Source of the DNA: Nocardiopsis coralli
GTDB lineage: Bacteria > Actinomycetota > Actinomycetes > Streptosporangiales > Streptosporangiaceae
NCBI RefSeq assembly: GCF_014892575.1
Contig: NZ_JADBGI010000005.1
Span: 62,001-126,000, forward strand
Direction of reading: 5' to 3'
Length of the DNA: 64,000 nt
This document shows positions 12,376 to 26,290 of this stretch, piece by piece. Position 1 is the first letter of the stretch. Every line of letters begins with the position of its first letter. Made by a program: the position numbers and the translations under genes. Under the pieces are notes generated by a model, which was not told the DNA's origin, did no database searches, and saw only the letters and a program-made list of their open reading frames with translations.

Positions 12376-12957
12376 TCAGGGACGCGGGTCCGACGGCAGC
12401 AGGCTGTAGACGGCCAGGTCGTACCGGGTTCCGCCGTGGCCCGGCATGGCGCTGCGCTCCACACCCTCGAACGTGTACCCCGTGCGCTCCGGGATGCTGC
12501 GGGAAGGCGCGTTCCCCGTCGCCGCCTTGATCTCGACGCGGCGGAACCCCTGGTCCAGCGCCCACCGCGACACCGCAACGACCGCCTCGGTCATGTAACC
12601 CCGGTTGCGCGCCCACGGTGAGGACCAGTACCCCAGCTCCCCGTTCATCGCTGCCCAGCTGACGCGCAGCAGGCCGATCGCCCCGACCAGGCGGCCCGTG
12701 TCGGCCTCGGTCATCGCCCACTGCTGCCCCTCGCCGCGCGTACGCATGCCCGGGGAGACCTCGCGGCACCACTCCTCGGCGTCCTTGCGGGTGTAGGGGG
12801 TGTCGGGCGCGGGGATCGGGATCCACTTCTGCAGGTCGGGGTCGCTGCAGGTGGCCAGGACGTCGTCGATGTCGTCCTCGATGAAGGCCCGGAGCCGGAG
12901 CCGGTCCGTCTCGAGGACGACGGAGGGCAGCATCTTCTTCTCCTGGAGGTCGCTCAC
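12376..12957 (-). CDS. GNAT N-acetyltransferase (RimJ/RimL type)
   Basis: The 193-residue protein starts at a GTG (12957). It has the RimJ/RimL opening LETDRLRLRAF (residues 15-25), the segment TGRLVGAIGLLRV, then the acetyl-CoA-binding region GYWSSPWARNRGYMTEAV with the RGxxTEA motif, and the C-terminal RVEIKAATGNAPSRSIPERTGY block in which NxxS contacts the cofactor. Such enzymes acetylate N-terminal amines of ribosomal proteins, or small molecules including antibiotics; the substrate cannot be assigned. It is transcribed divergently from the bluB-cobT fusion across a 280-base intergenic region in which I see no clear operator or cobalamin riboswitch. Confidence 0.88.
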   Translation of the reverse strand: MSDLQEKKMLPSVVLETDRLRLRAFIEDDIDDVLATCSDPDLQKWIPIPAPDTPYTRKDAEEWCREVSPGMRTRGEGQQWAMTEADTGRLVGAIGLLRVSWAAMNGELGYWSSPWARNRGYMTEAVVAVSRWALDQGFRRVEIKAATGNAPSRSIPERTGYTFEGVERSAMPGHGGTRYDLAVYSLLPSDPRP

Positions 12958-13237
12958 GGCGAGTGGGTTCCCTTCGTTCCGGCGGTCGGGGTGGGGTCAG
13001 GCTATGGGGCGGAAAAGGGCAGCGCATCCCGTTTGCCCGGGCCGCTGCGTGTCGGCTTCGTCCCGTTCGTGGTGGTCTCCGGGAACGGGTGCGGGCGGTC
13101 TCTGGCACAGTTGTGGGTGACTTGGGCACCCGGACGGGCCGGGTGGCGCTGCCCGGGGCGCGGGCCCCTTCCTCCATCTTTTCCCCGCGCCGGACCGGGT
13201 GTGACGGGCAGCGGTCGACCTCTCCGGGGAGCGAAGC

Positions 13238-16200
13238 ATGACCGACGACGACCGCCAGGACAGCCGTCCGGGGCCGGGGCTCTCCGGGCTGCCCGGGGAT
13301 CCCGAGGACGGTGGTGCCGAGGCGGCGGGCCGTGCCGAGGCGCCGGGTGGTGCCGAGGGCGGTGCCCGCGGTGGGGACGAGGCAGGAGCGCTGCTCGGCG
13401 GACTGTTGGACGGGCTGCCCGAGAGCGGACGCGGTATCGGGGACCCCGGTGGTACCGGTGGTGCAGGTGGTCTCGGGGAGCCGGCGCCTGCCAACCCCTT
13501 CCGGACGTCCGAGCCGCCGGCGCACGCAACTCCCACGGACACACCGCCGCCGGACGCGCCGCCGCCCACCGGTCCGCCGGTGAGTACCGAGGCTGACCCC
13601 GACCCGCTGGGCCTTGCTTCGGCGACAGGTCCCCTGGCGCCCTCGCAGCAGACCTGGAGCCCGCGCGGTCTCCAGGGTGCGGACGGTGCGGGCGGCGCCG
13701 GGCCGGGCGCGGGGCCGCCCGACGGTGGTGCGCCGGTCTCCGGTGTCCCCGTAACGCCGGCAACGCCCGGACCGCTGGGAACCACGTGGGACGTAGGCGG
13801 GGCTGACGCGTCCGGTACACCTGCGTCCGGTCCGCCCGACACATCCGACGGGGCCGAGACGTACCCGGCTTCCCCGGCGTCTCCGGCTTCCACGTCCTTC
13901 CCTGCCGCTCCGGGCCTGCCGACGTCCGCGGGATCCGACCAAGATGCGCCCGGCGACGATGCGCCCGGCGACGATGCGCCCGGCGCCGATGCGCCCGGCG
14001 ACGATGCGCTCGGCGACGATGCGCCCGGCGCCGATGCGCCCGGCGACGATGCGCTCGGCGACGATGCGCCCGGCGCCGATGCGCCCGGCGACGATGCGCC
14101 CGGGGCCCCTGGAACGCGCCGTGCTCACGGACCGGAGGGGGACGTGCCCGGGGAGAGCGCCCTCGGGGGATCCGTGCCCGGTGATCCCGCGCTCGGGGAG
14201 CCCGTGCCTGAGGAGCCCGTGGCTGGAGAACCTGTTCCCGGGCCGTCTGTGCCCCCGGCGGAGGGGCCCACCTCCACCGGCCCCAGCACGCCCAGCGCGC
14301 CCGGCGCGCCTGAAGCGCCCGCGGGGCATGACACGCCTCCGGTGCATGAATCGTCCGGCGCGCGTGGGGCACACGCACGTCCGGATGCACCGGGGCCCGG
14401 GGACTCCACCGGTAGCGGTGACACCGGTGAAGCCGTCGGCACCACGGACACCACTGGCACCGCCGGCACCGGCGCGCACAGGCAGATGCCGCAGAGCACG
14501 GCCGGTGGGGGAACGGGTGCGGACCACGGTGACCGTGCGGGTCACGGGGACCACGTGGCCCACGTGAACCACGGGTCTCACGGTGAGTACGGGGTGCAGG
14601 GGGTCGGTGGCATCGCCGACGCCTCTTCCGGCGGTCTCAGCGACGGGGACCATGCGAACGACACCGGCCACTCGGGCGACCGCGACCAGGGAGGTCACCC
14701 CGGTCAACACCCCACGAACGTCGCGCCCGGCGGTGCGAGCACGCCTGGTGCGCCTTCCGGTCCTTCTGCCCCCGTGCATCCGACAGGCCGGCCGGACACG
14801 GCGGAGACCCGCGATGCACCAGATGCCCCCGAAGCGCAGGGGGCGCATGGTGTTCCTGCGAGCGATGGGAGCGGGGAGGCGTCCGAGGTGCGTGCCGAGC
14901 CTGCGGAACCGACGGCCGACGTGGCCCCCACGCCTACGACGTCCCCTGCGGGCGCCGCAGGGGCTGAGGATGCCGAGGACGCCGAGGGCTCCGTGTCCCC
15001 CGACATCCACGGGGAACCGAATCGACGCACCGAGCATGTCGAGACCGAACTCTCCGGGCGAGATCTGCCTGACGGCCCGGACCTCGATGGCGGGCACGAA
15101 GCGTCGGACGGGCCTGACGGGTCTGCCGCCGGCGGCGCGCCCACAGTTCCGGCCGCGCACACCGGTGGGAACGCCGGCGGGAACACCAGCGGCCTGCCTG
15201 CCGGGAAGACCGGCGCTCAGGACGCCGTGCGGAACACCGCCCAGGCCGAGAGCCAGAACCTCGATGCGGCCGTTGCCCAGCCCGGCACGGAGACCGGTAC
15301 CGCTGAGGGGGCCGTCGGTCCTACCGGTGGAAGCTCTGCTGCTGGGACCGACAGTGATGCCGACAGCCGCATCCGCGCAGGCGCCGGCTCCGGCCCCGGC
15401 GGGCACGCTGTTCCGACCGTCGCGGGCGGGCATGCGACGGGCTACGACCTCAATGTCGAGCCCCACGGCGTCGCCGAGCGAGCTCAGCTCGCCCAGGGCG
15501 CCCAGAGCGTCTCGCATGACGAACGGGGCGCGCAGGCCGCCGCCAATGCGGTGCAGGGTGCGGATGCGCCTGCCACACACGCTGCGCACGACGCGCGCAC
15601 CGAGCCTCTGGCGGAAACCGCGGATGCGGCGCCCGTCCCGAACCCTGCGCACGACGCGCAGAAGGCCGTGTGTGATGCGGTGACTTCGCCTGCGGAGCAG
15701 GCCCCGAACCCGACCCATGACTCGCGGGGAGCGGATGACGCCCGCGCCACGCACAATGTGTCGGACGTGCAGGTCGCGCATTCTGCGCGGGGCGCGGATG
15801 GCGCACGTGCCGCGCATGACCCGCATGACCCGCATGCTGCGCAAGGTGCCCTCGCTGCTGGCGTGCAGGACTCACGTGCCGACCGGAACCCCGACGCGAC
15901 CGGAACGCAGGGGAACCCCGGCACCCCTCAGCGGCCCGAGGCTCCTCAGACGTCCGACGGCCGTGATGCCTCCGAGGCCCTCGCGGCTCCTGAGCAGGCT
16001 GAGTCCCCTGCATCCCCTGAATCTCCCGAGCGACCCGCGTCACCGGTATCTGCGGAACCCGCAGCCCCTGAGAACCCTGCGCCCCCTGAGCAGTCCGCCA
16101 CCGCTGTGGTGCCTGTGGCCTCTGAGCCGCCGCATGCGCCTGTCGCGCCTGCTGCGCCCGTTGAAAGCAACGAGGCCGAGCCCTCTGCCGGCGCACATGG

Positions 16201-19200
16201 CGCGCACGGTGGAACTCGCGCCCCTGGTGGGGCAACGCCTTCTCGTGACGCGCCTCTGGGCACGGGTGAGCACCCGGGCCCGGGGACATCGGGGGCGTCT
16301 GGGCGTTCCTCCAGGTCCGATGCGTCCGAGCCGCCGCATGCGCCTGTTGAAATGGATGAGGCCGAGGGCCCCGCCGGTGCACATCACGTGCCTGGCCCGT
16401 TCAGCGCGCGCCAGGAGCACGGGACCCAGGACGCGCGAAGCGCTTCGGGTGAGCCCGGCGGCGCAGGTGGTGCCGTTGGTGAGGCCCCCCATGCCCCGAT
16501 GAACGCGCCCAGCGGACCCAGCGCGCCCGTCGAGCACGGGCGGCAGGCCGTGCAGGCCGCGACACGTGAGCCCGACGGCGCGGATGGTGCTGCCGCCGAC
16601 GACTCCGTCCCCTCCAGGCCCGCGCCGAGTGAGCCCGGGGCCGCTGGTACGCACGAGGAACACGGGGCGCAGGAAGCGCGTAGCGCGGCCGGCACTCCCA
16701 GCACGTCCGGCACGCGCGGTGCGTCCCGCACGCGCAGGCACGTGGTCGGGGAGAAACCGGCGGGCGAGCCTCGCGGAACTGGATCCGTGGCCCCCGGAAG
16801 GGCTGCGCCCACGGGCGAGCACGTGGGCGTGGGCATGTCCGGGGCGTCTGGGCGTTCCTCCAGGTCCGATGCGTCCGAGCCGCCGCATGCGCCTGTTGAA
16901 ACGGATGGGGCCCAGGGCCCCGCCGGTGCACATCACGTGCCTGGCCCGTTCAGCGCGCGCCAGGAGCACGGGACCCAGGACGCGCGAAGCGCGTCGGGTG
17001 AGCCCGGCGGCGCAGGTGGTGCCGTTGGTGAGGCCCCCCATGCCCCGATGAACGCGCCCAGCGGACCCAGCGCGCCCGTCGAGCACGGGCGGCAGGCCGT
17101 GCAGGCCGCGACACGTGAGCCCGACGGCGCGGATGGTGCTGCCGCCGACGACTCCGTCCCCTCCAGGCCCGCGCCGAGTGAGCCCGGGGCCGCTGGTACG
17201 CACGAGGAACACGGGGCGCAGGAAGCGCGTAGCGCGGCCGGCACTCCCAGCACGTCCGGCACGCGCGGTGCGTCCCGCACGCGCAGGCACGTGGTCGGGG
17301 AGAAACCGGCGGGCGAGCCTCGCGGAACTGGATCCGTGGCCCCCGGAAGGGCTGCGCCCACGGGCGAGCACGTGGGCGTGGGCATGTCCGGGGCGTCTGG
17401 GCGTTCCTCCAGGTCCGATGCGTCCGAGCCGCCGCATGCGCCTGTTGAAACGGATGGGGCCCAGGGCCCCGCCGGTGCACATCACGTGCCTGGCCCGTTC
17501 AGCGCGCGCCAGGAGCACGGGACCCAGGACGCGCGAAGCGCGTCGGGTGAGCCCGGTGGGGTTGTTGGCGAGACGCCCGAGCCTGTGCCCGCGCGTAGCG
17601 CGCCGGGGACCGCTGGTACGCACGAGGAAGACGGGACCCAGGACGCGCCCAGCACGTCCGGCGCAGCACCCCGCGCCCATGGGGACGGTCAGGAAGGCGC
17701 AGTACCGCACGCGGCAGCGACGCGCGTTGATGCGGACGCGGAACCCCTCGCGCGCACCTCCGCCGGCCAGGCCTACGCCGACGCCGAGCGCGAGGCGGTC
17801 TACCGCACCATCCGCGAACGCCGCGACGTCCGCGTCGGGTTCCGCCCCGACCCCATCGCCCACGACCTCCTCACCCGCATACTCGAGGCCGCCCACCAGG
17901 CACCCAGCGTCGGCCACGCCAAACCCTGGGACTTCCTCGTCGTCGACGACCGCGCCCTGCGCACCCGCGTCCACGACCTCGCCCGCGCCGAACGCGAGGG
18001 CCACGCGCGCTCCCTCCCGGGCACCCGCGCGCACGCGTTCTCCGGGCTCAAGGTCGAGGCGATACTCGAGGCCCCCCTCAACATCGCCGTCACCGTCGAC
18101 CCCACGCGCGGCCCCCGCCCCGCCGCCGGCCGCGACGCCCGCCCCATGAACGCCCCCTACTCCGCGGCGCTGGCCGTGGAGAACCTCTGGCTCGCCGCAC
18201 GCGCGGAGGGCCTCGGGGTCGGCTGGGTCTCCTTCCTGGACGAACGCGACGTCGCCCGCGCCCTCGACCTGCCCCCTCACCTCGACGTCGTCGCCTACCT
18301 CTGCGTGGGCCACGTCGACGAGTTCCCAACCGAACCCGAACTCGGCCTCGGAGGCTGGGCGAAGGGACGCCCCCTGTCCTGGGCGGTCCACCACGACCGC
18401 TACGGCCGCCGCGGCCTCCCGGGACGGGAACCCACGAGCTTGCTGGAGGAGACCATCGCCGCCATCGGAGCGCTCAGCGCCCGCGCCGTCGAGGAGGCCA
18501 GAGACCGCCAGAGCAGAATGGCCAAACCCCCGGGCTCCCTCGGTGTCCTGGAGGAGGTCTCCGTGCGCCTGGCCGGCCTCTCCGGCGAGTGCCCGCCCCC
18601 GATCCCCGAACCCGCCGCCGTAGCGGTGTTCGCGGGTGACCACGGGGTGCACGCCCAGGGGGTCACCCCGTGGCCGCAGGAGGTCACCGCGCAGATGGTG
18701 CAGACCTTCCTGTCGGGCGGAGCGGTCGTCAACGCGTTCGCCGCGCAGGTCGGTGCGGACGTCACCGTCGTGGACGTGGGCGTGGTCGCCGACCTCCCGC
18801 CGTCCCAGGGCCTGCTGCCCCGCAAGGTCGCCCGCGGCACCGCCGACCCCACCCAGGGCCCGGCCATGACCCGCCCGCAGGTCCTCCAGGCGCTGGAGAC
18901 CGGCATCGAGGTCGCCCGCGACCTGGTCTCCGCGGGCCACCGCTGCCTGATCACCGGCGACATGGGCATCGCCAACACCACCCCGTCCGCCGCCCTGGTC
19001 TGCGCCTACACCGGTGCTTCCCCCGAGGACGCCACGGGTGTGGGTACCGGTGTGGACGAGCAGACCCACAAGCGCAAGGTCGACGTGGTCCGCCGCGCCC
19101 TGGAGGCCAACCCGGTCGACGCCTCCGACCCGGTCGGAACCCTCGCCGCCCTCGGAGGACTGGAGCACGCCGCCCTGGCCGGGTTCGTGCTCGGCGGCGC

Positions 19201-19492
19201 CGCCATGCGCGTGCCGGTCCTCCTGGACGGTGTCATCGCGGGATCTGCCGCCCTGGCAGCCGCAGCGATCTCCCCGGAGTCGGTGAGCGCCTGCTTCGCG
19301 GGGCACCGTTCCTCCGAACCCGGGCACGCCGCCGCCCTCGACCACCTCGGACTGCGCCCGCTGGTGGACCTGGAGATGCGTCTGGGGGAGGGCTCCGGGG
19401 CCCTGCTCGCCCTGCCGATGCTGCAGGCCTCGGCGCGTGCCCTGCGTTCGGTGGCCACCCTCGAGGACTCCGGGATCACCGCCGCGCCCTGA
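13238..19492 (+). CDS. cobT: Giant BluB-CobT fusion with ~1,500-residue repetitive N-terminus
   Basis: This 2,084-residue frame makes and activates the lower ligand of cobalamin. Residues 1513-1720 are BluB, the flavin-destroying 5,6-dimethylbenzimidazole synthase (RRDVRVGF, PLNIAVTVD, GVGWVSF). Residues 1737-2084 are CobT, nicotinate-nucleotide:dimethylbenzimidazole phosphoribosyltransferase (KPPGSLGVLE, FAGDHGVHAQGVTPWPQEVT, and LEMRLGEGSGA containing the likely catalytic Glu). Residues 1-1512 are low-complexity Ala/Gly/Pro/Asp/His sequence with DAPGD pentapeptides and two and a bit copies of a 183-residue unit. All repeats are multiples of three and the frame never breaks, which supports translation. 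The ATG at 13238 has GGGGAG 6 bases upstream. An internal start near 17585 (GTG) for a normal-sized BluB-CobT remains possible. Followed by a hairpin and then the cysG-like gene. Confidence 0.85.
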   Translation: MTDDDRQDSRPGPGLSGLPGDPEDGGAEAAGRAEAPGGAEGGARGGDEAGALLGGLLDGLPESGRGIGDPGGTGGAGGLGEPAPANPFRTSEPPAHATPTDTPPPDAPPPTGPPVSTEADPDPLGLASATGPLAPSQQTWSPRGLQGADGAGGAGPGAGPPDGGAPVSGVPVTPATPGPLGTTWDVGGADASGTPASGPPDTSDGAETYPASPASPASTSFPAAPGLPTSAGSDQDAPGDDAPGDDAPGADAPGDDALGDDAPGADAPGDDALGDDAPGADAPGDDAPGAPGTRRAHGPEGDVPGESALGGSVPGDPALGEPVPEEPVAGEPVPGPSVPPAEGPTSTGPSTPSAPGAPEAPAGHDTPPVHESSGARGAHARPDAPGPGDSTGSGDTGEAVGTTDTTGTAGTGAHRQMPQSTAGGGTGADHGDRAGHGDHVAHVNHGSHGEYGVQGVGGIADASSGGLSDGDHANDTGHSGDRDQGGHPGQHPTNVAPGGASTPGAPSGPSAPVHPTGRPDTAETRDAPDAPEAQGAHGVPASDGSGEASEVRAEPAEPTADVAPTPTTSPAGAAGAEDAEDAEGSVSPDIHGEPNRRTEHVETELSGRDLPDGPDLDGGHEASDGPDGSAAGGAPTVPAAHTGGNAGGNTSGLPAGKTGAQDAVRNTAQAESQNLDAAVAQPGTETGTAEGAVGPTGGSSAAGTDSDADSRIRAGAGSGPGGHAVPTVAGGHATGYDLNVEPHGVAERAQLAQGAQSVSHDERGAQAAANAVQGADAPATHAAHDARTEPLAETADAAPVPNPAHDAQKAVCDAVTSPAEQAPNPTHDSRGADDARATHNVSDVQVAHSARGADGARAAHDPHDPHAAQGALAAGVQDSRADRNPDATGTQGNPGTPQRPEAPQTSDGRDASEALAAPEQAESPASPESPERPASPVSAEPAAPENPAPPEQSATAVVPVASEPPHAPVAPAAPVESNEAEPSAGAHGAHGGTRAPGGATPSRDAPLGTGEHPGPGTSGASGRSSRSDASEPPHAPVEMDEAEGPAGAHHVPGPFSARQEHGTQDARSASGEPGGAGGAVGEAPHAPMNAPSGPSAPVEHGRQAVQAATREPDGADGAAADDSVPSRPAPSEPGAAGTHEEHGAQEARSAAGTPSTSGTRGASRTRRHVVGEKPAGEPRGTGSVAPGRAAPTGEHVGVGMSGASGRSSRSDASEPPHAPVETDGAQGPAGAHHVPGPFSARQEHGTQDARSASGEPGGAGGAVGEAPHAPMNAPSGPSAPVEHGRQAVQAATREPDGADGAAADDSVPSRPAPSEPGAAGTHEEHGAQEARSAAGTPSTSGTRGASRTRRHVVGEKPAGEPRGTGSVAPGRAAPTGEHVGVGMSGASGRSSRSDASEPPHAPVETDGAQGPAGAHHVPGPFSARQEHGTQDARSASGEPGGVVGETPEPVPARSAPGTAGTHEEDGTQDAPSTSGAAPRAHGDGQEGAVPHAAATRVDADAEPLARTSAGQAYADAEREAVYRTIRERRDVRVGFRPDPIAHDLLTRILEAAHQAPSVGHAKPWDFLVVDDRALRTRVHDLARAEREGHARSLPGTRAHAFSGLKVEAILEAPLNIAVTVDPTRGPRPAAGRDARPMNAPYSAALAVENLWLAARAEGLGVGWVSFLDERDVARALDLPPHLDVVAYLCVGHVDEFPTEPELGLGGWAKGRPLSWAVHHDRYGRRGLPGREPTSLLEETIAAIGALSARAVEEARDRQSRMAKPPGSLGVLEEVSVRLAGLSGECPPPIPEPAAVAVFAGDHGVHAQGVTPWPQEVTAQMVQTFLSGGAVVNAFAAQVGADVTVVDVGVVADLPPSQGLLPRKVARGTADPTQGPAMTRPQVLQALETGIEVARDLVSAGHRCLITGDMGIANTTPSAALVCAYTGASPEDATGVGTGVDEQTHKRKVDVVRRALEANPVDASDPVGTLAALGGLEHAALAGFVLGGAAMRVPVLLDGVIAGSAALAAAAISPESVSACFAGHRSSEPGHAAALDHLGLRPLVDLEMRLGEGSGALLALPMLQASARALRSVATLEDSGITAAP
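13943..14105 (+). repeat. 15-bp (pentapeptide) tandem repeat inside the bluB-cobT frame
   Basis: Ten consecutive 15-base units plus a partial one encode DAPGD, DALGD or DAPGA in a roughly three-unit (45-base) higher-order pattern. All units keep the reading frame. Confidence 0.9.
16292..17560 (+). repeat. 549-bp direct tandem repeat inside the bluB-cobT frame
   Basis: Copy 1 covers 16292-16840, copy 2 covers 16841-17389, and a truncated copy 3 covers 17390 to about 17560. The period of 549 bases equals 183 codons. Copies differ by only a few bases, mostly near the start of copy 1 (EMDEAEG against ETDGAQG), so the duplication is recent or is being homogenised. Confidence 0.92.
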
Positions 19493-19718: not shown

Positions 19719-20999
19719 ATGACCTATCTCCTTGGTTTGCGCATGGCCGGACGCGACGTGCTCGTGGTCGGCGGGGGAAGGGTCGCCCAGCGCCGCATCC
19801 CCGTCCTCATCGAATCGGGCGCCCGGGTGCACCTCGTCTCCCCGGCCGTGTCCACTGCGCTGGAGGACCTCGCCGCCGCCGGGCACATCACGTGGGCCGC
19901 GCGCGGTTACGAACCCGGCGACGTCGCCGGCCCGGACGCCGCCGCCTACTGGCTGGTCCACGCCGCCACCGACGACCCCGCGGTCAACGCCGCCGTCGCC
20001 GAGGAGGCCGAGAACGCCCGCCTGTGGTGCGTGCGCGCCGACGACCGCCACGCCTCCGCGGCCTGGACGCCGGCCAGCGGAAGCGTCGGGGACGTCACGG
20101 TGGGTGTGGTCGCTTCCGGTGACCCCCGCCGCGCGGCCGGGCTCCGCGATGCCGTCACCGGGCAGCTCGCCGACGGGACCCTCGACGCCCGCCGCGGCCG
20201 CGAACGCCTCTCCGGTGTCGCCCTGGTCGGCGGCGGCCCCGGCGACCCCGGCCTGATCACGGTCCGCGGACAGCAGCTGCTCTCCCAGGCCGACGTCGTG
20301 GTCGTGGACCGCCTCGCGCCGACCTCCCTGCTCGACCGCCTCCCGGCCGACGTGGAGATCGTCGACGCCGCCAAGATCCCCTACGGCCGTTCGATGGCGC
20401 AGCAGGCGATCAACGAGGTTCTCGTCGACCGCGCCCGACAGGGCAAGTTCGTGGTGCGGCTCAAGGGCGGCGACTCGTTCCTGTTCGGCCGCGGTGGCGA
20501 GGAGGCGGCGGCCTGCGCAGAGGCCGGCGTTCCGGTCCTGGCCGTGCCCGGCGTGACCAGCGCGCTCGCAGCTCCGGCCGCCGCCGGGGTGCCCACCACC
20601 CACCGCGGTGTCGCCCAGAGCGCGCACGTCGTCTCCGCCCACGTGGCGCCCGACGATCCGCGTTCGACCGTCGACTGGGCCGGGCTCGCCGCCTCGGGCG
20701 GTACGGTCGTCGTACTCATGGGTGTGGAGCGCCTGGACAAGGTCGCCGAGGCGATGGTCACACACGGTCGCGACCCCGAAACCTCCGTCGCCGTCGTGCA
20801 GGAGGCCACGCTGCCTGGGCAGCGAACCGTGACGGGTACTCTGGCGACCATCGCCGCCGAGGCCCGATCGGCCGACGTGCGGCCCCCGGCGGTGGTGATC
20901 ATCGGAGAAGTGGTCAAAACAGCGCGGGAACTTGACATACTGCACACGGGAACCCAGTTCGAGACCCGTCGACTGGCGACCGGGCGCGATCTCCAGTGA
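19719..20999 (+). CDS. cysG: Bifunctional precorrin-2 dehydrogenase / uroporphyrinogen-III C-methyltransferase
   Basis: The 426-residue protein combines two steps on the way to siroheme and cobalamin. Residues 1-150 form the NAD-dependent dehydrogenase/ferrochelatase-like half with GGGRVAQRR (18-26). Residues 165-415 form the S-adenosylmethionine-dependent uroporphyrinogen-III methyltransferase with [13 protein letters not shown] (169-181), [18 protein letters not shown], the cobalt-precorrin-type [21 protein letters not shown] (read in two blocks) and MGVERL. The ATG follows GGGGAG closely. It is shorter than E. coli CysG (457 residues) mainly in the N-terminal half, so chelatase capacity is less certain. 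The preceding bluB-cobT gene places it in a tetrapyrrole locus, although a hairpin and its own upstream inverted repeat suggest separate transcription. Confidence 0.92.
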
Positions 21000-21068: not shown

Positions 21069-22961
21069 ATGACCCGGCCGTCGGCTGCACCGAACGCCAC
21101 CGGCTCCGGTGCCTCGGACCGGTTCGACCCAGGACCGGCCGCCACCTCCGACCAGACCACCGAAGGGCACCACGACGTGCCCGAGGCCGGAACCCCGTAC
21201 GCCGCCGGGCGCCGGGGCCCGACCGTCCCCATCCCCGCCGGGCGGGCCAAGCACCGCGCCCCGGCCGCCGACGACGGCCGCTTCGAACAGGTCCTGGAGT
21301 CACTGCGCACCCAGATCCGGGACCTCCGTTTCGCCGAGGGTCTGCCCGGTGCCGAGGAGGGCGCCGAGCTCCAGGCCGACGTCCTGGCGCAGCTCTCCGA
21401 CTACGTGCTGCCGCGTGTGCGCCGCCCCGACATCCCCCTGCTGATCGCCGTGGCCGGATCCACCGGCGCGGGCAAGTCCACCCTGGTCAACAGCCTGGTG
21501 GGCGAGCAGGTCACGACCACGGGCGTGCGCCGTCCGACCACGAACAGCCCGGTGCTGGCCTGCAACCCGGCCGACGTCGACTGGTTCAGCGAGTCGCACT
21601 TCATCCCGACCCTGCCGCGCGTGCGCCAGCAGGGTCTGGCGATGCCCGGTAAGGACGGCATGCTCGTGCTCGCCGCGAGCGAGGCCATGCCGCCCGGTGT
21701 GGCCCTGCTGGACACCCCGGACGTCGACTCCGCCGTCGCCGCCCACCACGAGTTCGCGTCCAAGTTCCTGGACGCCGCCGACCTGTGGGTGTTCGTCACC
21801 ACCAGCACCCGCTACGCCGACGCCCGTGTGTGGGAGTTCCTGCAGGTGGCCCGGGACCGCGACACCTCCCTGGCCGTGGTGCTCTCGCGAGTGCCGCGCA
21901 AGGGCCGCCGCCAGCTCCTCGACCACTTCGGAGCGATGCTGGAGGCCAACGGGCTCGGCAACGCCACCCGTTTCGCCGTTCCCGAGACCGACCAGATCTC
22001 CGGGGAGCGCTTCACCTCCAACGTCGCCGACCCGGTGCGCGACTACCTGGCCGACGTCGCGGGCGAGGCCGAACAGCGCGACCGCGTCTCCCGCCGTACC
22101 TTCATCGGTGTCATCGACAGCTTCGCCAAGCGTGTGCCCGAGCTGGCCCGCTGTGTGGAGGGCCAGATCGAGCTCTCCCGGCAGCTGGAGTCCGTCGTGG
22201 ACGACGCCTACGCCGGTGCCGCCCAGCGCATCGACTCCGGGTTGGGCGACGGCTCCCTCCTGCGCGGGACCCTGCTGGCGCGCTGGCACGAGGTCGCCGC
22301 CAGCGGTGAACTCGCCAAGACCCTGAAGATGCGCAGCAAGCGCGGCCGCAAGGCCAAGGCGCAGCAGGCCGAACGCGGACAGCGCGTCGCCTCCCTCGAA
22401 CGTGCGGTGCGTGACGCCCTGGAGGCCCTCGTGGTCTCGGCGAGCGAGCGTGCCTCCGACGAGGTCGAGGAAGAGTGGCGCACCGTCTCGGGCGGCGGGG
22501 ACCTCGCGGCGACGGCGCTCGAACAGCCCGGCACCGGGATGCTCACGCAGCAGATCCGGCAGGAGATCGCCGAGTGGCAGCGCGAGATCGCGGAGATGAC
22601 CGCGGCGAGCGGCGCCACCAAGCGCTCCGTGGCCCGGTTCGTCACCTTCGACCACGACGTCGTGGCGCTGGTCCTGATCATCGACCTGCTCGGTTACGAG
22701 CGCAGCCAGTCGGGGGGCGGAGCCCACGCCGCCGAGGCCTCCGGGCCCTCCCCGCAGCGCTTGCTCAAGGGGTTGTTCGGAGCACCGTCCCTGCGCAGCA
22801 TGGGCGCGACCGCGCGCGACAACCTGCGGGAGCGCATCGAGGGGCTGCTCCGTCGCGAGCGCCTGCCCTTCGACACCGCGCTCGCGTCGGCGGGGGTCCC
22901 GTCGGAGGACGCCGCCGTCCAGCTCTACCAGGCCACGTACAACCTTGAGATAACACGATGA
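21069..22961 (+). CDS. Dynamin-family GTPase, soluble partner (DynA-like)
   Basis: The 630-residue protein has a low-complexity leader (1-70) and a GTPase domain with the P-loop GSTGAGKST (130-138), switch-region LDTPDVDS (G3) and no canonical NKxD; the equivalent place reads LSRVPRKG. A helical region follows with basic stretches ([10 protein letters not shown]). No clear transmembrane helix is present. The stop overlaps the start of the next GTPase gene (ATGA), so the two are translationally coupled. In Streptomyces two adjacent dynamin-like genes, dynA and dynB, stabilise FtsZ rings at sporulation septa; a soluble first protein and a membrane-spanning second protein match that arrangement. 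The DynA assignment is an inference from architecture and gene order. Confidence 0.8.
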
Positions 22962-25900
22962 CGACTCAGTGGAACCCTGCGGGGCACCAGGGCGAGCCCG
23001 GCGCTGACGGCAACGGCAACGGGGAGGACGCGGGTACCGGTTCCCAGGCCGGTCCGCACGCGGACCAGCACGGGTCGGACGCGCCGTCCCCGGCCCAGGC
23101 GTCGGACGCCGGGCGCGCCGAGGCCGACCCCGGTCCCTGGCGCGTGTACACGATGCCGGTGCCCGAGAACCCCGAGCACGGTGACGAGGCGGGCGCGGAG
23201 GCCGAGCCGGAGGAACTGGGCTACGACGGGATCACCGGTTACCCGGCGCCCGCGGGGCCCGCCGGGCCCGGGGAGGGGGCCCAGCACCGTTCCACGGGCC
23301 GTCACGCTCGTCCGACGGGGCCGAGCGGCGGGCTCAGCCCGGAGGACGGGGACGACGACCCCGACGGTCTCGCGGGGTGGGTCGGCAGTCTCACGGAGGC
23401 GGCCGACGACACCCGGATCGCGGGCCGGACGACCGGGTCCTTCCCGGCGGTGTCCGGTCGCGAAGCCGGCCGAGCGCAGCGTTCCGGGGCAGAGGGTTCC
23501 TGGACGGAGACGGTTCGGCCCAAGACCCGGCCCGGTGAGACGCAGCCGGAACCCGGAGACACGGGGACGACCGGGGCGACCCCTGCGGAGGGGTCCTGGA
23601 CCGAGACGGTGCGCCCCTGGGCGGCCCGTCCCGAAGCCGGGGGCATCGGCCCCGACGCCTCCGCCGGAAGCGCCGGGACGGCCGAGCCCCAGAACCCGTG
23701 GCGCGACGACACGGATTCCTCCGGCGCAGAGGGGGCCCCGGGTACCGCCGGGGCCGACAGCTCCGAGCGTGTGAACGAGGGGCCTCGGGCCACCGGCGCG
23801 GGGGCCACAGGGGCCACAGCTGTCACTGGGGCCCTCGGGGGATCAGGCGCCCACGAGGCCACGGGCAGGCGGAGCCCCTGGCGCGACGACCCCGCTTCTT
23901 CTGACCCTGCCGGGGCCGGCGCGTCCGCGCCCTTGAACGCGGGTTCCGGGGGCACCGGGGGGCAGGGGTCCTGGCGTCAGGACACCCCGGCCGGCGGCAT
24001 CGCGGGCGCCCACGAGGCCGATGGAACTTCCGGCACCACTGGAGCTCCCGGTGTCTCGGACAGCTCGGAGGCCAATGGCGGGCAGGACCCGTGGCGCGAC
24101 GACCCCGCTTCCTCCGGAGCCGCAGGGCCCTCGGGTGTCCCCGATTCCGGTGCGTCCGCGTACGACGCCGAGCTCCCGTGGGCCAGCGGAGGCCGGGCCG
24201 CCGCGCGCGGCGCGAACGAGGCCGACGGGACCACTGGTGCCACCGAGGCCGACGGGCAGACCGACACGGCCGCCCGCAGCGCCTCCGCCGGCGCGACCGC
24301 AGAGGGCGGTCGCCCTTCCGGGGAGCCCTCGGGTGACCTGCTCGCCGACGACCCGGCGGATTCCGTCGACTCCACTGCGTCCGCAGCTTCCGACGCGTCG
24401 GCGCAGGACCAGGACGAGGACGCGGGCGAGAGCCGGCGCGGCCCGGACGAGGCCGAGCCGCTGCCGCACCGCGTCCCCGGCACCTCGCCCATGTCGGGCG
24501 CGTTCCGGGCCGTGAACCCCAACGCCGGCACCACCGGCAAGGCCGACGGCGACACCGGACCGAGCCCCTCGGCCCCGGCCGGGGCCGACGAGGACGGACC
24601 CGCCTCCGACGAGAACGACTACCGCCCGACCGACCACGACACCTGGCGTCCGGCCCGCGCCTCCACCCGCGAGGAACTGGTCGAACGCCTCGAAGCGCTC
24701 GGCACCCTGCAGGAGCTCGGCGAGGGCGAGATCCCCTCCAACGTGACCGAACGCTCCGCCCAGCTCCTGGAGCACGCCGGGGCCCGCCTGAACCTGTCCG
24801 GCGACCACACCGTCGTCGCCCTGGCCGGCGGCACCGGCAGCGGCAAGTCCTCCCTGTTCAACGCCTTGTGCGGGCTGGAACTGTCGCAGACCGGCATCAC
24901 TCGCCCCACCACCTCCAAGGCGCACGCCTGCGTGTGGGGGCACGAGGGCGCCGACGAACTCCTGGGCTGGCTCGGGGTCCCGCAGCGCTACCGCCACTCG
25001 CGCACGGGCGTGCTCGACTCCGGCAACTCCGAGATGAACGGGCTGGTCCTGCTCGACCTGCCCGACCACGACTCGGTCCGCAGCATGCACACCGCCGAAG
25101 CCGACCGGCTCATCGGCTCCGTCGACCTGCTCGTGTGGGTCCTGGACCCGCAGAAGTACGCCGACGCTGCCGTCCACCACCGTTACCTGGCCAAGATGGC
25201 CGGGCACGGCGCGGTGACCGTGGCCGTGCTCAACCAGGTCGACCGGGTCGGGAACGAGGAGCTCGAGGAGCTGCTCACCGACCTGCGGCGCCTGCTCGAG
25301 AGCGAGTCGGGTGTGCACCCGCGCATCATCACCACCTCGACCACCACCGACCAGGGCGTGGACGACCTGCGCGAGTTCCTGGTCGAGACCGTGCACGAGC
25401 GGCGTGCCCTGGTCGACCGCCTCGACGCCGACCTCGACGTCATCATCGGGGACTTCGAACCGTTCCAGGGCGAGGGCGAGATCCCCACGACCGTCTCGAC
25501 CGAGGTGCGTTCCTCCCTGCAGAAGGGGTTGTCGAACGCGGCCGGGGTCAGCGCGGTCGCCGACGTCACGGAGGCCAACGACGTGCGCCGCGGCCGGCGC
25601 AGGGTCGGGTGGCCGGTGGCGCGCCGGCTCGCCAAGCTGCGCAAGGATCCGTTGGCAGCGGTGCAGTTGGACTTCGTGCGCCGCGACACCGAGAACGGGG
25701 TGTCCGGACGGGTCGACGCGCACGAGGCCGAGCTGGAGAAGTCCCTGGTGGAGGCGGCCGACAACGTCTCCGAGGGCATGCCGTCGATGTGGCGCCGGCG
25801 TTTGCGCGCGGCGGCCCGTTCGGGTGTGGGCGAGCTCCCCACCGAGCTGGGCAAGACCGTCGACGCCGCCGTACGCGGGTCGGAGCGGACCCCCTCCTGG

Positions 25901-26290
25901 TGGGCCTTCGCGCGCCTGGTGCAGTACGTGCTGCTGGGTGTGGCCGGCGTGGGCGCTGCCTGGGCGCTGGTGTCGGCGGTGAGCTGGTTGGGCGGCGGCA
26001 TCACCGGGCTCCGGGTCTTCGACGACCCGGTCTTCATCGCCTACTCGGCTGCGGTCGTGGCCGCCTCGCTGGTGGTCGGCTGGCTCACGGGGGTGGGCTG
26101 CGGGAACCTCGTGGAGGTCGCGGCCGTCCAGCGGCGTGAGGAGATCGAACGCACCGCGGACGCGAGCATGCGCGAGATCGCCGGGGAACGTGTGGTGCGC
26201 CCGTTGGAGGCCGAGCTGGAACGGTTCCGGTCCTTCCGCCGGGCCTACGAGACCGCACGAGGGCCTGCCGAGCATGGTTCCGGGGGCTGA
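22958..26290 (+). CDS. Dynamin-family GTPase, membrane partner (DynB-like) with long repeat-rich N-terminus
   Basis: The 1,110-residue protein starts within the stop codon of the previous gene. Residues 1-560 are acidic/Gly/Ala-rich and probably disordered, with repeated tryptophan motifs: GSWTETVRP twice, and PWRDD three times (NPWRDDTDSS, SPWRDDPASS, DPWRDDPASS). The GTPase domain carries G1 GGTGSGKSS (624-632), G3 LDLPDHDS and a canonical G4 NQVD. After a helical bundle, two transmembrane helices lie at about 986-1010 and 1026-1048 (YVLLGVAGVGAAW and YSAAVVAASLVVGW), followed by a helical tail. This matches DynB-type bacterial dynamins that remodel or tether membranes during division. The N-terminal extension is much longer than needed for a GTPase. 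Ends at strong hairpins. Confidence 0.82.
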   Translation: MTTQWNPAGHQGEPGADGNGNGEDAGTGSQAGPHADQHGSDAPSPAQASDAGRAEADPGPWRVYTMPVPENPEHGDEAGAEAEPEELGYDGITGYPAPAGPAGPGEGAQHRSTGRHARPTGPSGGLSPEDGDDDPDGLAGWVGSLTEAADDTRIAGRTTGSFPAVSGREAGRAQRSGAEGSWTETVRPKTRPGETQPEPGDTGTTGATPAEGSWTETVRPWAARPEAGGIGPDASAGSAGTAEPQNPWRDDTDSSGAEGAPGTAGADSSERVNEGPRATGAGATGATAVTGALGGSGAHEATGRRSPWRDDPASSDPAGAGASAPLNAGSGGTGGQGSWRQDTPAGGIAGAHEADGTSGTTGAPGVSDSSEANGGQDPWRDDPASSGAAGPSGVPDSGASAYDAELPWASGGRAAARGANEADGTTGATEADGQTDTAARSASAGATAEGGRPSGEPSGDLLADDPADSVDSTASAASDASAQDQDEDAGESRRGPDEAEPLPHRVPGTSPMSGAFRAVNPNAGTTGKADGDTGPSPSAPAGADEDGPASDENDYRPTDHDTWRPARASTREELVERLEALGTLQELGEGEIPSNVTERSAQLLEHAGARLNLSGDHTVVALAGGTGSGKSSLFNALCGLELSQTGITRPTTSKAHACVWGHEGADELLGWLGVPQRYRHSRTGVLDSGNSEMNGLVLLDLPDHDSVRSMHTAEADRLIGSVDLLVWVLDPQKYADAAVHHRYLAKMAGHGAVTVAVLNQVDRVGNEELEELLTDLRRLLESESGVHPRIITTSTTTDQGVDDLREFLVETVHERRALVDRLDADLDVIIGDFEPFQGEGEIPTTVSTEVRSSLQKGLSNAAGVSAVADVTEANDVRRGRRRVGWPVARRLAKLRKDPLAAVQLDFVRRDTENGVSGRVDAHEAELEKSLVEAADNVSEGMPSMWRRRLRAAARSGVGELPTELGKTVDAAVRGSERTPSWWAFARLVQYVLLGVAGVGAAWALVSAVSWLGGGITGLRVFDDPVFIAYSAAVVAASLVVGWLTGVGCGNLVEVAAVQRREEIERTADASMREIAGERVVRPLEAELERFRSFRRAYETARGPAEHGSGG

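Follow-up and report, generated by a model that had tools for sequence, protein, structure and literature searches.

A window of 64,000 nucleotides from Nocardiopsis coralli (the whole stretch analysed; contig NZ_JADBGI010000005.1, positions 62,001 to 126,000, forward strand) contains a gene in which BluB, the 5,6-dimethylbenzimidazole (DMB) synthase, and CobT, the nicotinate-nucleotide:DMB phosphoribosyltransferase, are fused in one chain behind an N-terminal tail of 1,512 residues. The encoded protein is an extreme length variant of a known tail-BluB-CobT architecture. Judged from comparative sequence analysis, the tail is real, apparently translated, family-wide and equipped with a selected motif near its end, and it is presumably disordered. 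We lean modestly towards an account in which the tail would act as a disordered tether that carries a docking motif towards its far end, its linkers having expanded neutrally and in frame.

Architecture of the fusion gene

The gene lies on contig C45 of a 6.4 Mb draft genome of 80 contigs. According to the open reading frame listing and its translation, the frame runs without interruption for 2,084 codons from an ATG. The features on which the argument draws are as follows.

13226..13231, forward strand: Shine-Dalgarno-like GGGGAG before the start; many congeners share the context GGGGAGCGA..ATG
13238..19492, forward strand: tail-BluB-CobT fusion gene, one ATG-started frame of 2,084 amino acids with BluB and CobT profile matches
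13238..13255, forward strand: N-terminus MTDDDR; most congeners have MTxDDR or something close to it
13385..13435, forward strand: island 1, GALLGGLLDGLPESGRG, including LLDGLPESGRG; residues 50-66, conserved in Nocardiopsidaceae-type sequences
13493..13504, forward strand: NPFR, second conserved short motif; residues 86-89
13583..13642, forward strand: island 2, STEADPDPLGLASATGPLAP; residues 116-135, common to loci L140 and L142
13943..14103, forward strand: 15-bp tandem repeat of 10.7 copies encoding DAPGD/DAPGA/DALGD, from Tandem Repeats Finder (TRF)
15398..15472, forward strand: island 3, GGHAVPTVAGGHATGYDLNVEPHGV; residues 721-745, common to L003, L140 and L142
16298..17536, forward strand: 549-bp (183-codon) tandem unit repeated about 2.3 times; of 690 positions compared, 4 are mismatched
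17774..18388, forward strand: BluB domain (TIGR02476); residues 1513-1717
18479..19477, forward strand: CobT domain (TIGR03160); residues 1748-2080

Both enzyme parts scored above the curated cut-offs of their equivalog profiles (252 bits against 150 for TIGR02476, 410 bits against 319 for TIGR03160), and both are thus members of these families. The BluB part aligned over residues 20-220 of the solved BluB structure 2isj (E 6.6e-54) and keeps the RRDVR and GWVS blocks, which we take to hold the catalytic residues. The CobT part matched PDB 1wx1 (E 2.2e-77) and keeps the LGEG motif, whose glutamate is presumably catalytic. With two domains in a single uninterrupted frame and BluB first, the arrangement is that of the actinomycete BluB/CobT fusions.

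Residues 1-1512 gave no Pfam or NCBIfam family match at E 0.001. The first 1,500 residues consist of 17% Gly, 18% Ala and 13.5% Pro and carry a net charge of -136, with only four Lys and ten aromatics. All six TRF rows in the tail have periods in multiples of three (15, 18 and 30); the 549-bp unit exceeds the TRF period limit of 500 bp. An earlier note on this DNA had described a BluB-CobT fusion behind a long, unbroken, repetitive N-terminus whose repeats come in multiples of three, and on each of these points the description holds: the profiles match above their cut-offs in a single frame, the sense frame of the tail has zero stops, and the 549-bp unit conforms along with the TRF periods. 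The note had also put the tail at three times the size of the enzymes. It is indeed much longer than they are, but the measured ratio is 2.6 (1,512 versus 572 residues). A His-rich stretch was seen at tail residues of about 391-480 (seven to eight His per 60 residues), which in pairwise alignment mostly has no counterpart in N. salina.

Translation and selection of the tail

At 75% G+C an open frame by itself is weak evidence, since long antisense frames (1,182 and 1,166 codons) overlap the gene too. Chance is unlikely to account for the open frame of the tail: when the first 4,500 bp were simulated 300 times with a first-order Markov model, the longest stop-free run spanned 876 codons (median 333), short of 1,490 in every simulation. 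The real sequence has no stops in the sense frame, as against 8 and 50 in its two alternative forward frames. Comparative evidence indicates translation of the tail. Across the genus the Shine-Dalgarno context recurs, as does the MTxDDR start, and nucleotide matches between tails begin in phase in 23 of 24 cases, with 145, 201 and 285 mismatches at codon positions 1, 2 and 3. When a six-frame control was run within the tails, the true frame was the best protein match in all six species pairs.

We define the Nocardiopsidaceae-type tail-bearing BluB-CobT proteins as those with MTxDDR, LLDGLPESGRG and NPFR in frame with the enzymes, all of which the window protein has. Motif counts for this group and for Streptomycetaceae treat sequences sharing the first 300 enzyme residues as one, and they exclude rows whose contig or fetched stretch stops short of the motif (7 and 22 rows, respectively, some of them shorter fetches of genomes counted elsewhere). 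Island 1 is in frame, with some substitutions, in all 46 distinct Nocardiopsidaceae-type sequences that reach it, L144 with its broken frame set aside. The ratio of nonsynonymous to synonymous differences per site (pN/pS) is 0.215 for LLDGLPESGRG, as against 0.994 and 0.980 in its flanks, where the alignment is rough. Islands 2 and 3 keep the same order within the clade of the window sequence, L003, L140 and L142, with pN/pS of 0.08 (island 2, three species) and 0.28 (island 3, four species) compared with 0.30 for the enzymes. The motif NVIPFR, present in many congeners, is absent from the tails of the window, L003, L142 and L140, as well as from several others.

Island 1 is also single-copy in the genus. 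A single strong match (E below 2e-5) was obtained per genome in 39 of the 40 genus genomes, extra matches having E 0.0055 or worse; in the fortieth, G032, the enzyme lies at a contig end. No second site was found in the genome of N. coralli, where the next best match (E 0.6) is at chance level. The island falls within the open frame of the enzyme or a BluB piece in 36 of the 39 genomes, a count that includes G005 and G028, whose enzyme is split or broken and whose BluB piece has the island in frame. The three exceptions are G017 (island 1 and enzyme on different contigs), G013 (no enzyme found) and G008 (frame broken).

Streptomycetaceae tails have N-terminal motifs of their own, whose ungapped blocks gave pN/pS of 0.30 (50 of 58 sequences) and 0.31 (all 58). 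Five further rows of this count have no in-frame start motif, namely L072, whose frame is broken, and L145, L146, L147 and L155, which have no tail. An enzyme control for these sequences (ratio 0.67, from 20 of 58 sequences and made with no alignment) is unreliable and was not used. Because the islands of both groups have pN/pS of 0.08-0.31 and island 1 is single-copy, part of the tail is under purifying selection.

Some Streptomycetaceae tails (for example L027 and L081) show recurring MTDTGQVPGEGLPE, DLLLLPGAQGAWG and RSLADRGPAG (33 of 58) amid low complexity. The GLPE(N/S) piece of these motifs resembles the Nocardiopsidaceae island, as a likeness only.

Distribution and growth of the tails

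The earlier note had called the tail extraordinary, but uniqueness is not supported by the survey of relatives: judging by the genomes sampled, the tail is a family trait, and in two groups of actinomycetes it is the usual state. The whole enzyme pair or parts of it occur in 39 of the 40 genus genomes, N. coralli included, with G013 giving just a weak match to the BluB part; in a class-wide draw, 212 of 296 genomes match at E 1e-60, many over the CobT part alone. Nocardiopsidaceae-type tails span 101-1,512 residues with a median of 241 (n=43 with a located start, being the 46 island 1 sequences minus four without one plus L140), and 39 of the 42 listed are no longer than 410. Those of Streptomycetaceae span 510-1,407 residues with a median of about 720 (n=58 distinct sequences with a located start). 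The window tail is the longest located, at about six times its family median and a log-length z of 5.4 against the 42 others. Tail length and G+C at third codon positions (G+C3) of the tail gave rho -0.36 (p 0.018) for the 43 Nocardiopsidaceae-type and rho -0.21 (p 0.12) for the 58 Streptomycetaceae sequences; kinship was left uncorrected, and for this reason these values were not used.

By eye, on the evidence of the nearest start and a low G+C3 upstream, nine fused loci of other lineages (L145-L152 and L155) seem tail-less and start near BluB; L155 is ambiguous (upstream G+C3 0.77-0.87). Each tail-bearing group formed one clade in a tree of 47 enzyme sequences (20 Nocardiopsidaceae-type, 18 of the 58 Streptomycetaceae and the 9 tail-less), and the window sequence grouped with N. 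salina, L140 and L142. Weak at its deep forks, the tree leaves undecided whether tails arose once or twice.

The domain order with an extra N-terminal region is shared with Streptomyces griseus BluB/CobT, for which Deptula et al. 2015 (PMC4657239) note an N-terminal region of unknown function. Streptomycetaceae tails are rich in Ala, Pro, Glu and Val and carry MTDTGQVPGEGLPE...DLLLLPGAQGAWG, whereas the window tail is rich in Gly, Ala and Pro and carries LLDGLPESGRG and NPFR. The characterised BluB/CobT2 of Propionibacterium freudenreichii (626 residues) likewise has BluB and then CobT in a single chain, for which coupled activity and efficient metabolite channelling were reported; as described in that paper, it has no long N-terminal tail, BluB being amino acids 1-257, and instead a proline-rich spacer of about 34 residues between the domains (PMC4657239). 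Beyond that remark on S. griseus, we found no published study of the BluB/CobT N-terminal region in a search outside which most subscription literature lay.

Tail length has changed quickly among close relatives. The nearest named relative, N. salina YIM 90010, is 96% identical over the enzymes, with 0.041 changes per site, or about 0.02 for each from the common node; the tails measure 1,512 and 575 residues. Island 2 and island 3 start 605 residues apart in the window, 231 in L140 and 268 in L142, and the enzyme follows the start of island 3 at a distance of about 790 residues in the window, 240 in L003, 214 in L140 and 190 in L142. Since these distances differ between relatives, it is the linkers that grew and not the islands. 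Part of this growth is recent, namely the 549-bp unit, whose copies are 99.4% identical; their four differences comprise three nonsynonymous and one synonymous. With tails 937 residues apart in length and enzymes differing by 4%, the sister species offer a clear example of a bacterial metabolic enzyme whose presumably disordered region changes length rapidly.

An N-terminal stretch of low complexity is likewise encoded by a dynamin-like GTPase gene in the window (22958-26290, forward strand), which adjoins a second dynamin-like GTPase gene at 21069-22961. Ahead of its GTPase part, the open frame extends for 608 codons in the window, for 486 codons in N. salina and for 267-564 codons across 14 further loci. 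Because this neighbour shows it too, N-terminal growth is not peculiar to BluB-CobT; the six-fold excess is.

A possible tether and its alternatives

The frame, the conserved start, island selection, the single-copy specificity of island 1, the lineage distribution and the recent in-frame duplication are the observations from which the favoured account proceeds; disorder and docking, and with them the tether function, are inferred from composition and conservation. The gene would yield one 2,084-residue protein, whose C-terminal part would turn FMN into DMB (BluB) and DMB into alpha-ribazole phosphate (CobT). Residues 1-1,512 would form a disordered tether, near whose far end the family-specific peptide LLDGLPESGRG...NPFR would dock the enzyme onto a partner. 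As a guess, this partner would be the machinery that assembles the nucleotide loop (CobU, CobS or CbiB at the membrane). Selection would be confined to the sparse islands, the linkers would tolerate in-frame insertion and leave length nearly free, and in this species repeat duplication would have brought the tail to roughly six-fold the family median. PMC8092220 describes the proposal of a membrane-associated CbiB/CobU/CobT/CobC/CobS complex, and PMC10468695 describes DMB as a flavin antagonist inhibiting Salmonella growth. That LLDGLPESGRG...NPFR (in Streptomyces, MTDTGQVPGEGLPE...DLLLLPGAQGAWG) might be an undescribed recruitment peptide for a cobamide assembly complex, carried on an entropic tether of about 100-1,500 residues, is a tentative idea that we rate as rather doubtful. 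If correct, it would provide a natural series of tether lengths on homologous enzymes (about 100 to 1,500 residues) for testing disordered tethers in a bacterial pathway. The family is testable, as homologous B12 enzymes share a peptide near the N-terminus while tether length varies fifteen-fold (101 to 1,512 residues), and identifying the partner of the LLDGLPESGRG peptide would bear on the question of whether a complex carries out the late cobamide steps.

Several observations weigh against the tether account or the evidence beneath it. The islands behind the pN/pS range were picked for protein conservation, which biases pN down; the phase test of nucleotide matches, unlike these ratios, does not start from protein conservation. 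Gaps are in multiples of three in just 11 of 26 cases within the local tail alignments, and other frames also yield weaker protein matches (for L140/L142, 60.8 bits at best, in frame -1, versus 94.0 in the true one; for the window and L003, 52.8 versus 55.8 bits). The G+C3 coding signature is weak in the tail, where G+C at the three codon positions is 0.81/0.68/0.75 compared with 0.79/0.54/0.92 in the enzymes, and tail G+C3 is similarly low in N. salina (0.75) and S. acidiscabies L081 (0.76). The tail frame breaks in two relatives, L144 (G008, in which the enzyme frame is broken as well) and L072 (Streptomyces sp. P3). The earlier note had named frameshifts in the repetitive part of relatives as a sign against the tail, and such breaks do occur, but in just these 2 of 106 distinct sequences with a visible conserved start or island (46+1 and 58+1). 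No partner of the putative docking peptide was identified in this analysis; neighbouring cobU and cobS sit on a contig other than that of the fusion gene, and the cobS match falls short of the curated cut-off of its model. The island 1 motif may instead dock onto the enzyme itself. Because nine fused enzymes of other lineages appear tail-less, the tail is probably dispensable for catalysis.

Neutral expansion alone, in which the tail would be translated without a job, lengthened by slippage and unequal recombination and held open and soluble by selection, is a serious reading that we nevertheless consider unlikely. It accords with the near-identity of the 549-bp copies and their mostly nonsynonymous differences, the island 1 flanks at pN/pS of about 1, the divergent tails of the sister species and the low-complexity stretch of about 608 residues in the neighbouring dynamin-like gene; the islands at low pN/pS and the single-copy island 1 point the other way, to a tail selected in part. 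Neutral expansion is likely as the source of the extra length, and the selfish coding expansion proposed in the earlier note fits that length but not the conserved islands. Translation starting near 17585, just before BluB, would make the long frame an untranslated or unused leader, in keeping with the weak G+C3 signature and the apparently tail-less enzymes elsewhere. This alternative, also raised in the earlier note, is very improbable, contradicted as it is by the conserved start and Shine-Dalgarno context at 13238, by selected in-frame islands as far as residue 745 and by the phase kept at the beginning of nearly all tail matches. A second, internal start may be used besides 13238. The exact tail length could also be an assembly artefact of the 549-bp repeat, given a draft of 80 contigs and almost identical copies; draft assemblies usually collapse repeats rather than multiply them, and the tail without the extra copies would still have about 1,280 residues, which makes such an artefact improbable.

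Two readings give the tail a different job. As a driver of condensates that concentrate the pathway, it has suitable length, low complexity, repetitiveness and net charge, but it holds few of the usual stickers (the aromatics and Lys counted above, and no elastin-like VPGxG) and most Nocardiopsidaceae-type tails are short. By composition the condensate reading is weak, and the phase-separating scaffold suggested in the earlier note is accordingly improbable. Targeting into a Family 2 encapsulin shell seems very improbable. The genome has two adjacent SrpI-like shell genes (L168, G000:C14:58000-76000), and several Family 2 cargo types have disordered terminal extensions (PMC8346489), a layout that Family 2B cargo would share with the window protein, whose disorder is presumed. 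The terpene-cyclase cargo consensus GPTGLGT is, however, absent from the window tail and from all 46 Nocardiopsidaceae-type and 58 Streptomycetaceae tails; it occurs twice in a positive control, a 754-residue cyclase-like gene near the shells. The shell genes lie on contig C14, and the fusion gene, on C45, forms no operon with a shell gene. Encapsulin targeting is thus not supported by the cyclase-type motif test. Because desulfurase and polyprenyl-transferase cargoes have no identified motif, according to PMC8346489, this test lowers the encapsulin reading and is not exhaustive. The positive-control gene is geosmin-synthase-like by its GPTGLGT mark alone. Nothing pointing to a surface tether, another suggestion of the earlier note, turned up, no search aimed at secretion having been made, and the fusion protein is presumably cytosolic.

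A scan for sigma-70-like promoters and terminators in 12900-18000 detected none and is uninformative at such G+C. The only match to known RNA families at gathering thresholds in the whole window is a tRNA at 1745-1817, so the window has no cobalamin riboswitch by this measure. Two genes flank the fusion gene.

12376..12957, reverse strand: GNAT acetyltransferase gene, upstream and divergent; the intergenic stretch up to the fusion gene probably holds the promoter
19719..20999, forward strand: CysG/CobA-like gene, downstream and co-directional, with NAD-binding and uroporphyrinogen-III C-methyltransferase domains

Elsewhere in the genome, a stand-alone second CobT-like gene (L002, G000:C1:137582-138493) is 37% identical to the fused CobT, and a similar one (39%) is present in the congener G034.

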